A DNA stretch of 56,626 nt from a virus. The notes beneath the pieces are model-generated. The model saw only the letters and a list, made by a program, of their open reading frames with translations, ran no database searches and was not told the origin of the DNA. Both the position numbers and the translations under genes were made by a program. The stretch's first letter is position 1. Every line of letters starts with the position of its first letter. Shown in pieces: positions 2,812-41,747 of the stretch. Location: IMG/VR virus record IMGVR_UViG_3300013233_000139, positions 1 through 56,626 of that record; one strand, given 5' to 3'.

Positions 2812-4011
2812 CTATGAAACCGTGACTAAATTGCCGAGGGCATTGCGAATAACATTTGCAGACGTGCGAATCAGAGAGCCGACGGCGTTGCGTACTGAAA
2901 AAGTCCCTCGGCCCATTGAGAATATCTTATACGTGTCACCGACTTGGGCCGCAGGGCCTGAAGCTAAGACCAAAGCCGTATTTGTGTGACTGGCTATGAT
3001 GGCTGTTCTCACGGTAAGGCCACTTCGTAATATGGTCACGTTAGCGCCCATAAAGGTATTGACCCCGAAATTAGCCGCGGTGTCTGAAATACCTGTAGCG
3101 CTTCCAGATGTCGCAGTACCAGATGCAATTGTAGCCACTGACGCGCTTGCGGCTGCACTAGCCGCAGCACTATCAGATGAGGCTACGGCTGAGTTGCCTG
3201 CGTTGGTCTCACTAATACCTGCATTAGTAGCAGAGACGCCTGCGTTGGTCTCACTAATACCGGCATTAGTAGCAGAGACGCCTGCGTTAGTCTCACTAAT
3301 ACCTGCATTAGTAGCAGAGGTCGCTGCAGCCAACGCATTAGCAGCACTTGTACCGTCCCTTAAAGCTACAGGTGAGCCCCACGACCCTGTAGCCTTAGGC
3401 CCGTACATATTATACGATGCGCTTGCCGTATCTATGTAGAGATCTGTGTCAACCCCTAGGCTTGAAGCGGGTGCACCAGTTCCACTATGAATTACAGAGC
3501 CTGCAGTACCTGCGTCAGAGACTAGTGACCAAAAAGCATCGGATATTGCAGGCGATGCCGGAGGAGTGTGTCCGGTATTATTCGCAACTAAAGATACAAA
3601 GTATCTACCTGCATGGCCTATAGCATCGCCAACTGCGTATGTAGTACCTACGACCCATGCGCCTCTATGAGTCATAGATGTAACAACTACGCCGTTATCA
3701 AGTGTTAACATAGCGCGTCGCACTATGCTCGAAGTCTCTATATCACCAGTTGATGGGTATGGAAGGTTTAAATTAGGTGTAAAGTCTCGAGTGATCGCGT
3801 ACAGTTGGCTAGAAGCTGTAACGCCTGCATAATTAGCAGATAAGGTTATACTGCCATCAGCGTTGACCGATGCCACCTCGTACCAGACGGCGTCGTTAGC
3901 TACGATAAATATATCGCCAATAGATATGTTGGATAGCCAAGCCGTGGAAGTGCCGGCTACTACTGCAGATCCGTTAGTTACACTTACTGTTCCTGCCAAG
4001 TATTGAGCCAA
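2812..4011 (-). CDS. Tail fibre / tail appendage protein with tandem repeats
   Basis: 399 residues, starting at a TTG 7 bases after a TAGGAG site. The N-terminal 90 residues are beta-rich (MAQYLAGTVSVTNGSAVV), a common start of phage tail appendage proteins. Around residues 115-165 there is a carbohydrate-binding-like stretch (RGAWVVGTTYAVGDAIGH). Residues 235-290 hold three copies of a 14-residue repeat (SATNAGISETNAGV) and an Ala/Ser-rich segment, probably a trimeric shaft. The gene has its own promoter (TTTACA-17-TATAAT) and lies behind a dispersed regulatory cassette, so it may be expressed separately from the upstream tail-tip genes. Fibre function is inferred. Confidence 0.7.
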   Translation of the reverse strand: MAQYLAGTVSVTNGSAVVAGTSTAWLSNISIGDIFIVANDAVWYEVASVNADGSITLSANYAGVTASSQLYAITRDFTPNLNLPYPSTGDIETSSIVRRAMLTLDNGVVVTSMTHRGAWVVGTTYAVGDAIGHAGRYFVSLVANNTGHTPPASPAISDAFWSLVSDAGTAGSVIHSGTGAPASSLGVDTDLYIDTASASYNMYGPKATGSWGSPVALRDGTSAANALAAATSATNAGISETNAGVSATNAGISETNAGVSATNAGISETNAGNSAVASSDSAAASAAASASVATIASGTATSGSATGISDTAANFGVNTFMGANVTILRSGLTVRTAIIASHTNTALVLASGPAAQVGDTYKIFSMGRGTFSVRNAVGSLIRTSANVIRNALGNLVTVS

Positions 4012-28577: not shown

Positions 28578-29287
28578 GAATTCAACAATTTGGAAAGCCA
28601 CTTCACGAATGCAGATATACGATTCAACAAATGGAATGCCACATCGGCGTTTTTGCTACTTCAAATCGACTTTCAGCGGCTTTTGAAGTACTTTGCACGT
28701 TGCACGAGGCCCAGAGCGCGAACTTCTATGCGGACCCGAGCCAGGAATTCAACAAAAAGGAAACCACATTCAACAAAAAGGAAACCCACGAGCTCCAAAC
28801 TAAAAAAGTTTGTCACGAACGAACCAAAGAGCGCTAAGTTGTTGTTTTTAAACAGTATTTCCGACCCCTTGGTGCAAAGCTCCTAAATGTTTGTTTTTGT
28901 TGCACTTTTTACTTCAACATCCTGTGCGTTGCGCTCCCATCCTATTTACTAAACATTTTTTAAACTTTTAAGTTAATATATAATAGTTATATATGTCTTA
29001 TATGTCCTTTTATGCCCTTTTAGCTATTATTAATATATATAATTAGTAAATAGTAAATAGGATGGGAGCGATATGCTACACACACATTGTTGCTCTGTAT
29101 AGTTCTTGGCTCCTGGGTCCTCGAAGCCTCGAAGTGACGAGTCCTCCTTTTACAAGTCCCATATTTCCAAATTGTTGAATCAGCAAATTCAACAAAAGGA
29201 AATTCACCGATTCAACAAAAAGGAAAATCGACGCGTTTTGCGCTCTGATTCCTTTTTGTTGAATCAATAAATTCAACAAAAGGAAAT
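28578..29287. repeat. Array of ATTCAACAAAAAGGAAA repeats
   Basis: About nine copies of a 14-17 bp unit, in both orientations, at roughly 28578, 28620, 28747, 28768, 29165, 29186, 29210, 29250 and 29270. The last two form an inverted repeat with CCTTTTTGTTGAAT. Confidence 0.6.
28932..29070. repeat. 20-bp inverted repeat around an AT-rich core
   Basis: CGCTCCCATCCTATTTACTA (28932-28951) and its exact complement (29051-29070) enclose 99 bp that is overwhelmingly A/T (ATATATAATAGTTATATATG-type). Could be an unwinding element, a miniature mobile element or a promoter region. Confidence 0.75.
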
Positions 29288-39025: not shown

Positions 39026-39232
39026 ATGTGGAGCTTTAACGAGATAACTCAAGTGGTTACCAGCGACACTTGTTTTGACCAAGCTAGTCGCGCGGTCATG
39101 AATGTAGCTGAGGAGCAGGTTAGGTTTGCCTTAATTAAGATGGGCTGGACGCCACCTAGCGCGGAGTCTAAGGTTGTCAGCAAAGGTAAATCCTCAACTT
39201 ATATCAGAGTGGCTAACACGACTATCCACTAA
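39026..39232 (+). CDS. Protein of unknown function
   Basis: 68 residues from the ATG at 39026 (AGAGGTAG site). MWSFNEITQVVTSDTCFDQA ... GWTPPSAESKVV. It closes the small-gene run before the primase-helicase promoter. No family recognised. Confidence 0.5.
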   Translation: MWSFNEITQVVTSDTCFDQASRAVMNVAEEQVRFALIKMGWTPPSAESKVVSKGKSSTYIRVANTTIH

Positions 39233-39241
39233 ATTGTGAAG

Positions 39242-39270
39242 TTTACATTTAGTTACTTTTTTAGTATAAT
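39242..39270 (+). promoter_or_regulatory. Promoter of the replication operon
   Basis: TTTACA (39242-39247)-17-TATAAT (39265-39270). The predicted start at about 39277 coincides with the first base of the structured leader. Confidence 0.75.
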
Positions 39271-39277
39271 ATAGCTT

Positions 39278-39354
39278 CCGAGAGTGGTGGTCTAGGCCAG
39301 ACCAGAGGGCTTACTGACGTAAGCCCTCATACTCGGAAATCAAATCTCTCGGAG
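39278..39354 (+). ncRNA. Structured leader with alternative pairings (riboswitch-like)
   Basis: CCGAG (39278-39282) can pair with CTCGG (39332-39336), closing a three-way junction with hairpins 39288-39304 (TGGTCT/AGACCA) and 39305-39328 (ten pairs, TGAC loop). Alternatively CCGAGAG (39278-39284) pairs with CTCTCGG (39346-39352), which covers the first bases of the GGAG ribosome site (39351-39354). The two states exclude each other. No match to a known riboswitch class was recognised. Confidence 0.6.
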
Positions 39355-39362
39355 TCTTATGA

Positions 39363-41747
39363 GTGCATGAATTAGCTCTACAATTTGCCGCTAACGGCTA
39401 TTACGTATTCCCTAGATATAACTCATCAAGAGGTCCACAGAGGCCATTCGGATGGGCCCGTAATACCCCTAAAGAGGCTGTACCAGAAAACAAAATAATA
39501 CCCGCATCTAATGACGTTGAGTATGTAAAGATATGGCCGCAACTAATCAAGGATGGCTATAATTCTACGATCCATAGTTATGGCGTTTTAGGTGTTGGCT
39601 GCCTGATTATTGACCTAGACGTCAAAGACGGTAAAGACGGCGTCAATGAGTTTAATCTATTAAGGGCTAAATTTAAATTCCCCTCGCCTAATCTGGTTGT
39701 CAAGTCTAAAAGTGGTGGCGTCCACTTATACTACAAAAAACCCCTTTCTTTAATATCGTCTGAGCTTAAAACTCTAGCTAGCATTGTCATTGACCAGGTT
39801 AAGTACGAAGGTGTAGACTTGCGAGGGGATGGGGGCTTCGTTGTAGGCCCTTCAAGGTCAGGTAAATGGGCTCCAGGTGAGTACGTTATATCAAAAGGCT
39901 CGCCATCAGATGAGTTATCAGAGGCCCCTGCTGACTTTATATCTAATTTCACTAGGACCACGTTCTCGAATACGTCAGACGCAGGTGAAGCTCTCATAGG
40001 AGCCAGTAGCAGCGTGACAACAGATGTCATGTCACAGCTACGCATGGGTGAGATCCCTACATCTCTACCAGAAGGGCAACGGAACGAAGGATTCTTTTCA
40101 TACATCTCTGCTTTGAGAAACAAGGGTTTTAGCAAGGACACAGTCAAGCGTATGCTTCCAACCTTGGTGGCCGTCACTGAGAATAAGGATACTCTCTTTG
40201 AGTCTATTGATATTGAGGAGATGCTATCTCGTCTATTCAAAGTAAATATGGACAACCCATATGACGTCTGCAGAGACTTATTTAACTACGGCCTGTATAG
40301 GCTTACGGGATATAAAACTAAAATACACTACACGATGATTAGTGATAACCCTTATGTCAGAAGTAGAGGGATACACGACGCAGCCAGCATGAAGCAGCTT
40401 TTATGTAAATATGAGCGGATGGTACCGAATAAGAGCGGCAAAGACAAGCTTATATCCCCAGCCACGCTCATTGATTATTTGGTGCCTGACGATCACGACG
40501 TGGATATCCTAGCTTTTAAGCCTGGGTCTGGACTGGCCTTCACGTCAGGAAACAAGCGTGCTTTGAATATATGGCTAGACCCTAGAGCCCGGTCAACTAC
40601 TAGTCCGGACCCAGCGGTATGGACGGAGTTTACTACTCTCATTGAGAGATTATTTGGCCCTAAGGAATCTGAGAACTTCTCACTGTGCCTAGACTTCTTA
40701 GCCTGGGTTATACAGAACCCAGGGATTAAGCCGTCAATAGCCCCGTTCATAATGTCTAGCAAGAGGGGTGTAGGAAAGTCACTGTTTATGTCTATAATGA
40801 TGAAGATATGTGGGTTTAACCTTATGGGCGAGACCCAGGCTAGGCCGTTTAAGATTAATGAGATATCTAGTAGATTTTTTGACCCATCAAGATCAGCCTT
40901 ACTGATATTCGATGAGGTGCAATTTCCTGTACATCGGAATATGAGGCAAGCGGCTTCGGACTTCTGGATGAATTTGAAAAACCTAATAACTTGTGACACG
41001 TACTCTGTAGAGATAAAGGGCGGGGACACCTTCGACGTGCCAAACTTGGGCGGAGTCATATTAGCCGGCAATGCGGGTGGCCACTTCCCTGTGGAAGAGT
41101 TTGACCGCAGGATGTGGATTGTTGACAACAACGCGCCACTGCTAGAGCGTGGAGTGTGTGACACCTTATTTAAAGCCAGATCGGACCACTCGGTAGAGCA
41201 AATAGTTATACCTACGCTGATTACTAAATTGAGTAAATATAAGATCGTAGAGGATATTTCCTCAATACGTGCACCGATGACCGCTATAAAACAAGAGATG
41301 TTTATGGCAACGCTCGACAGGTTGTCTGAGTGGTTTATGAGTCACTTTGATAGTCCAGATAACTTACTATCCCGTACTCCGATAATAACTAAATCAGCGT
41401 TGTTATATCTAATAGAGACGGACCCATTATTAGCCAATACAAATTACAGAGATGACCCTGAGCTAGCCTTTAGAGAGATACGCAGGGCAAACCTGATTCA
41501 CCCAATACGAGTAAAGCATAACACCAACCTATCCAGAAGCTTGCAGCTATTAGCCATATCCTCTACAGGCGACGTGTATGAGGAAACAAAGAGGGTGGTT
41601 ATTTATACCACTAGAGATCATGGTGAATATAACACGTTAGAGTCTACCGCACTGGCGCAGCTATATCTGCAAAACATTCATACAGTCAAGCGCTGGAGAG
41701 AGAATATGGTTTTAGCCAGTAAAGGCCGCCAGGCAAACTTAGTATAA
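39363..41747 (+). CDS. Primase-polymerase / SF3-type helicase fusion
   Basis: 794 residues starting at GTG. The N-terminal AEP-type Prim-Pol domain has LIIDLDVKDGKDG (about 84-96, catalytic acidic pair) and KSKSGGVHLYY (about 114-124, the sxH motif). The C-terminal half is an SF3/D5-like ATPase: Walker A SKRGVGKS (about 464-472), Walker B ALLIFDEVQF (about 515-524), sensor GGVILAGNAG and an arginine in FDRRMW. It would prime and unwind at the phage fork; no separate primase or helicase gene is needed. It is the first gene of the replication operon, under the structured leader. Confidence 0.88.
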   Translation: MHELALQFAANGYYVFPRYNSSRGPQRPFGWARNTPKEAVPENKIIPASNDVEYVKIWPQLIKDGYNSTIHSYGVLGVGCLIIDLDVKDGKDGVNEFNLLRAKFKFPSPNLVVKSKSGGVHLYYKKPLSLISSELKTLASIVIDQVKYEGVDLRGDGGFVVGPSRSGKWAPGEYVISKGSPSDELSEAPADFISNFTRTTFSNTSDAGEALIGASSSVTTDVMSQLRMGEIPTSLPEGQRNEGFFSYISALRNKGFSKDTVKRMLPTLVAVTENKDTLFESIDIEEMLSRLFKVNMDNPYDVCRDLFNYGLYRLTGYKTKIHYTMISDNPYVRSRGIHDAASMKQLLCKYERMVPNKSGKDKLISPATLIDYLVPDDHDVDILAFKPGSGLAFTSGNKRALNIWLDPRARSTTSPDPAVWTEFTTLIERLFGPKESENFSLCLDFLAWVIQNPGIKPSIAPFIMSSKRGVGKSLFMSIMMKICGFNLMGETQARPFKINEISSRFFDPSRSALLIFDEVQFPVHRNMRQAASDFWMNLKNLITCDTYSVEIKGGDTFDVPNLGGVILAGNAGGHFPVEEFDRRMWIVDNNAPLLERGVCDTLFKARSDHSVEQIVIPTLITKLSKYKIVEDISSIRAPMTAIKQEMFMATLDRLSEWFMSHFDSPDNLLSRTPIITKSALLYLIETDPLLANTNYRDDPELAFREIRRANLIHPIRVKHNTNLSRSLQLLAISSTGDVYEETKRVVIYTTRDHGEYNTLESTALAQLYLQNIHTVKRWRENMVLASKGRQANLV

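Follow-up and report, generated by a model that had tools for sequence, protein, structure and literature searches.

To our knowledge, the regulation of replication genes at the RNA level has been little explored in most tailed phages beyond the classical models. The leader of the MS2 maturation gene is kinetically trapped, and a transient fold permits translation before the final fold is reached. In bacteriophage T4, the operator of gene 43 folds into a hairpin whose loop, UAAC, is conserved, and the gene 32 site is a pseudoknot located 67 nt upstream of the start, according to the sections of PMC3014915 that describe these operators. Here, we report a mutually exclusive two-state leader at the 5' end of a predicted Prim-Pol transcript, and our analyses support that it is real and conserved. 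The structural claim is strong, and the function is one that we infer. Since the choice between two partners is kept in related phages despite changed letters, the leader has the appearance of a true RNA switch that acts on the replication of viral DNA. Among the matches listed in literature searches on phage riboswitch leaders, bistable leaders, primase-linked structured RNA and three-way-junction candidates (including PMC8040213), there was nothing on this element.

The leader is found in a 56.6 kb virus record, the whole of which was analyzed and is referred to as the window, where it lies in the 92 nt between a promoter and the GTG codon of the Prim-Pol gene (Table 1). A promoter at 39242 had been proposed in the original prediction and was borne out, as were a three-way junction closed by CCGAG/CTCGG and an alternative CCGAGAG/CTCTCGG stem. 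Both stems are two base pairs longer than proposed, with seven rather than five pairs between strands A and B (AB) and nine rather than seven between strands A and C (AC), and the inner hairpin (P3) is as perfect as claimed. The window leader folds better than expected by chance (z = -3.27; 1 of 200 shuffles equally good). ViennaRNA prefers its AC stem over AB by just 1.8 kcal/mol, so both states are within reach. The Rfam 15 covariance models gave no match to the window at the gathering threshold, and none even at E<=10 to positions 39230-39400 or to the leaders of L002, L006, L056, L065, L111, L112 and L060, in keeping with the earlier statement that no riboswitch class was recognizable. A family A DNA polymerase gene comes after Prim-Pol. 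A tiny frame, ATG-AGT-GCA-TGA (39359-39370), overlaps the Prim-Pol GTG start, and the cumulative GC skew of the window has its minimum near 29000, close to the switch from minus- to plus-strand genes.

Table 1. Features of the leader and its surroundings (window positions unless a contig is named)
Feature	Location	Strand	Remarks
Sigma70-type promoter TTTACA-17-TATAAT	39242..39270	+	11/12 consensus match; strong; predicted transcript start near 39277
Strand A, TTCCGAGAG	39276..39284	+	5' strand common to both mutually exclusive stems
P2 hairpin TGGTCT/AGACCA	39288-39293/39299-39304	+	Loop AGGCC, U-A closing pair, conserved GGCCA letters
P3 hairpin GAGGGCTTAC/GTAAGCCCTC	39305-39314/39319-39328	+	Ten perfect pairs, loop TGAC
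Linker J, P3 to C, contains B	39329..39345	+	Loose U-rich/CGG consensus in relatives
Strand B, CTCGGAA	39332..39338	+	7 bp with A 39276-39282, -14.1
Strand C, CTCTCGGAG	39346..39354	+	9 bp with A 39276-39284, -18.3; Shine-Dalgarno site within
GGAG Shine-Dalgarno site	39351..39354	+	Within strand C
Prim-Pol + DUF5906 primase-helicase, 794 aa, GTG start	39363..41747	+	PF09250 6.8e-11, PF19263 3.4e-10
HNH endonuclease ORF	L111:3087-3506; L112:2919-3506		Between leader and Prim-Pol

At the DNA level, no homologue of the window leader beyond chance was found in phages. Relatives were retrieved through proteins. Five phage records carry a close Prim-Pol (Xanthomonas phage Xp15, 45%; four Acinetobacter records, 41-42%), and a protein scan of viral contigs yielded L006 and, via the neighboring polymerase, L056, L060, L061 and L062, followed by L065, L067, L111, L112 and many distant loci. 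A total of 51 loci were inspected, Prim-Pol was present in 23, and the upstream region was read for 21 (L079 and L108 are truncated). Six more leaders were identified upstream of homologous Prim-Pol genes, in Xp15 and in five IMG/VR contigs (L006, L056, L065, L111 and L112), all with the order TATAAT, A, GGCCA-loop hairpin, long hairpin, B and C. An extended TGn precedes the TATAAT in six of the seven, the window being the exception. In a Prim-Pol tree of 18 rows, with more distant rows omitted, the seven leader owners form one clade (support 100/99) in which the window branches first, and L060 is its probable sister (85/84). The leader played no part in the retrieval of these seven and L060, which came from homology to Prim-Pol or polA; L067 was picked out for its GGCCA hairpin. 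In L111 and L112, which are 83% identical in Prim-Pol DNA and 64% in the leader, an HNH endonuclease gene (PF01844) separates the leader from Prim-Pol and the leader remains by the promoter, so that it heads an HNH-Prim-Pol operon there.

Outside this clade, the picture is mixed. L060 combines the GGCCA hairpin with the long hairpin but lacks the A/B/C choice (847 of 1000 shuffles as good). In L067, whose Prim-Pol is distant, the GGCCA hairpin occurs together with the choice in a different topology (0 of 1000). No such leader was found upstream of Prim-Pol in L062, where the genes abut, in the Acinetobacter phages L003-L005 or in contig L008. The genome contigs searched held no relative, and the plasmids searched gave a single match, distant and partial. 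Scans of viral contigs for the leader pattern returned 35 + 10 stretches, of which just L006 and Xp15 were real, the others being unrelated by inspection. Further leaders of distant Prim-Pol genes were read by eye. L066 has a different possible leader that hides the Shine-Dalgarno (SD) site, in which a hairpin loop following TATAAT, TCCCAGAGA, is complementary to TCTCTGGGA before the start codon (about 3200-3279). Candidate competing pairings in L072 (about 1420-1536), L099 (about 2110-2318) and L071 (about 3350-3444) also involve the ribosome site. In L056, L060, L065 and L066, a U-rich tail resembling an intrinsic terminator comes after the long hairpin, and the window is without such a tail.

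Helix-based tests were used in place of an alignment count because MAFFT alignments of the leaders misaligned the helices. Each leader was scored by the weaker of two helices sharing at least 4 bases of A with non-overlapping partners, and the score was compared with those of partner-region shuffles (Table 2). In the window, one shuffle in 1000 equalled the weaker helix, and in the distant L061, 80 did. Among 390 distinct TATAAT sites on both strands of 61 sequences (duplicate or overlapping L057, L058, L063, L064, L113-L121 and L123 omitted), the eight best scores fell on the seven clade leaders, with L112 appearing twice on account of its doubled -10 element. The clade leaders scored -13.3 to -18.2 and the next site, which lacks GGCCA, scored -13.0, leaving a thin margin at the bottom of the clade leaders (L111). 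When strands were swapped between phages, the mean fell from -15.7 kcal/mol for a phage's own strands to -7.8 kcal/mol, and the 3 of 42 swaps that reached the weakest own pair (-13.3) were each between sister phages. Both stems, AB and AC, are retained in homologues, and the covariation that the original prediction had left to such a comparison is present as a concerted change of A, B and C in seven phages. G-U pairs make up 14 of 129 helix pairs, which fits a plus-strand RNA.

Table 2. Tests and calculations for the seven clade leaders (nearest-neighbor calculations without pseudoknots; start sites predicted)
Leader	Shuffles as good per 1000	Same, A trimmed to nt 7	AC minus AB, nt 7 start (kcal/mol)	AC minus AB, full 5' end (kcal/mol)	Mean SD unpaired, AB	Mean SD unpaired, AC
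Window	1	1	-1.8	-1.8	.52	.26
Xp15	0	1	-2.5	+1.3	.12	.09
L006	0	0	-0.1	+5.3	.43	.44
L056	0	51	-2.3	+1.3	.62	.50
L065	0	3	-0.4	-1.3	.58	.37
L111	10	3	-0.8	0.0	.55	.52
L112	0	0	+1.4	+0.8	.64	.82

The first bases of the A helix lie 3-8 nt past TATAAT. With transcripts starting at nt 7, which shortens the AB stem of L056 to 5 bp, the calculated probability of AB before the synthesis of C is 1.00 in all seven. Once C is included, AB is favored in L112, and also in Xp15, L006 and L056 when the full 5' end is included. With 30 coding bases added, A pairs elsewhere in L006 and L111; when these bases are omitted, the AB/AC values are about 0.16/0.18 and 0.20/0.33, respectively.

The likeliest output is translation, reached through differing pairings, and here the explanation is at its weakest. 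In the window, the SD site lies within C, and AC consequently hides it. The proposed burial of GGAG therefore holds for the window, but the SD is outside C in the six relatives, where its exposure from AB to AC changes little or in either direction (Table 2). In the distant L061, GAGG is partly in its C and its AB is weak. Pairing of the linker with the ribosome-binding site exceeds chance in L006 (8 and 31 of 5000 shuffles), L111 (21 and 10) and L112 (179 and 53) and is not beyond shuffles in the window, Xp15, L056 and L065; the Fisher p over seven is 4e-4, for leaders that are not independent (sister pairs L111/L112 and Xp15/L006). The idea that the B-linker always pairs with the SD region after C was kept as partial support only, on account of the shuffle counts per 20000 (window 16007, Xp15 3088, L006 160).

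The P2 loop carries GGCCA in the seven clade leaders, L060 and L067, and in the first eight of these the loop is kept on differing stems. By eye, conservation among the unpaired letters of nine leaders is confined to GGCCA and a loose U-rich/CGG stretch. Known metabolite aptamers have far more conserved letters, so a classical riboswitch of the metabolite type is disfavored. The leaders do have the mutually exclusive structures of a riboswitch, but no conserved aptamer core was seen, and ligand-driven switching is less likely than switching driven by a protein or by kinetics. Fixed loop letters on a varying stem resemble a site for protein binding or for contact between loops, to judge from the sequences, and because GGCC is self-complementary, two transcripts might touch. 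A GGCCA hairpin with TATAAT just upstream (at most 45 nt; that of L060 is slightly farther away) occurs at this operon only, once in each of seven sequences scanned, among them the complete window and 25.8 kb of Xp15. No second element per genome, as with HK022 put after both early promoters, was found in these seven sequences. Two other candidates were dropped by eye: an intramolecular pseudoknot of the GGCC loop, which has no consistent partner across leaders, and a tRNA-like fold hinted at by GGTTCAATTCC in Xp15, since a T-stem is not present in all leaders.

We hypothesize, as the on balance probable reading, that the element is a co-transcriptional, cis-acting two-state leader RNA controlling the replication operon. 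Transcription would begin at strand A or slightly upstream, and the polymerase would produce A, P2 with its GGCCA loop, P3 and then B, such that A pairs first with B. C would be finished 8 to 16 nucleotides after B and, because the stability of AC is about equal to or slightly exceeds that of AB, may take the place of B on A through branch migration. How strongly the first replication gene is expressed would depend on the state adopted and its duration. Because AC buries the SD site in the window, AB would be ON there and AC would be OFF. A factor that biases the state, most probably a protein of the phage or the host, would likely dock at the GGCCA hairpin. The analysis shows the sequences, the pairings that they permit, their conservation and concerted change, and a near-equal calculated stability; the start site, folding order, translational output and trigger follow by inference. 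More tentatively, the leader may be an RNA timer, in which every nascent transcript passes through AB and then branch-migrates to AC, giving a limited period of translation that a GGCCA-binding factor could lengthen or shorten. Given that the three strands diverge fast between close phages with the logic fixed, such a timer would represent a new class of leader RNA.

The balance of the two closing strands would also suit a small-molecule riboswitch, in which AB or AC is locked when a nucleotide or cofactor binds to P2, P3 and the junction. The three-way junction with alternative closing strands, the near-equal energies and a gene for a thymidylate synthase complementing protein (nucleotide metabolism) just upstream in Xp15 speak for it; we consider it unlikely, as the shared unpaired letters are so few, junction lengths vary, the leaders match nothing in Rfam at E<=10 and only a single operon per phage sequence scanned has the element. 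Antitermination by the nascent RNA, as at HK022 put, is a rather improbable alternative, in which the two 5' hairpins would ride RNA polymerase past terminators and A/B/C would merely close the fold. Position at the predicted transcript start, the two hairpins and a total size similar to that given for put in the relevant part of PMC9378689 agree with this, as does a U-rich, intrinsic-terminator-like tail on P3 (5-7 U in 8) in 7 of 9 leaders. However, that tail has only 2 U in 8 in the window and 4 in Xp15, HK022 has two put sites against one element per sequence scanned here, put requires no second closing strand, and there is little conserved sequence for contact with the polymerase.

The inconsistent calculated effect on the SD site, together with the pairing of A near the 5' end in either state, would be expected of a 5' structure whose role is passive protection of the message, with B and C as redundant closing strands. 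Two balanced, exclusive partners kept through complete sequence change exceed what protection needs, however, which makes this explanation doubtful. The near-perfect direct repeats formed by B and C in L111 might suggest a DNA element, i.e., operator half-sites or origin iterons with B and C as direct repeats and A as their inverse. This is very improbable in light of the G-U pairs, the P2 loop letters kept on a changing stem and the cumulative GC skew, which is lowest near 29 kb and not near 39 kb.

The two-state leader RNA that we favor is well delimited and statistically strong, is present in the cultivated phage Xp15 and metagenomic relatives, and matches nothing in Rfam. With one strand and two balanced tandem partners, it is simple enough that a small number of point changes in a reporter could test it, and it could reveal how the onset of replication is timed in a phage. 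It resembles the autogenous translational operators of T4 (gene 43 for DNA polymerase, gene 32 for Ssb) in placing a structured RNA before a replication gene. It differs in that a two-state choice is not part of their description in the relevant sections of PMC3014915, in its GGCCA loop as opposed to the UAAC of gene 43, and in that any binding protein here is putative. Like HK022 putL and putR, as presented in part of PMC9378689, it has two hairpins at or near an early transcript start; unlike them, it occurs as a single copy per sequence scanned, offers the A-B/A-C choice and often has a terminator-like P3 tail. It shares with translational metabolite riboswitches mutually exclusive junction-closing strands able to expose or hide the SD, but shows no conserved aptamer core and no Rfam match. 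Finally, as in the MS2 maturation leader, a transient fold during synthesis would permit translation before final closure, whereas here the leader belongs to a DNA phage and has two defined alternative 3' strands.
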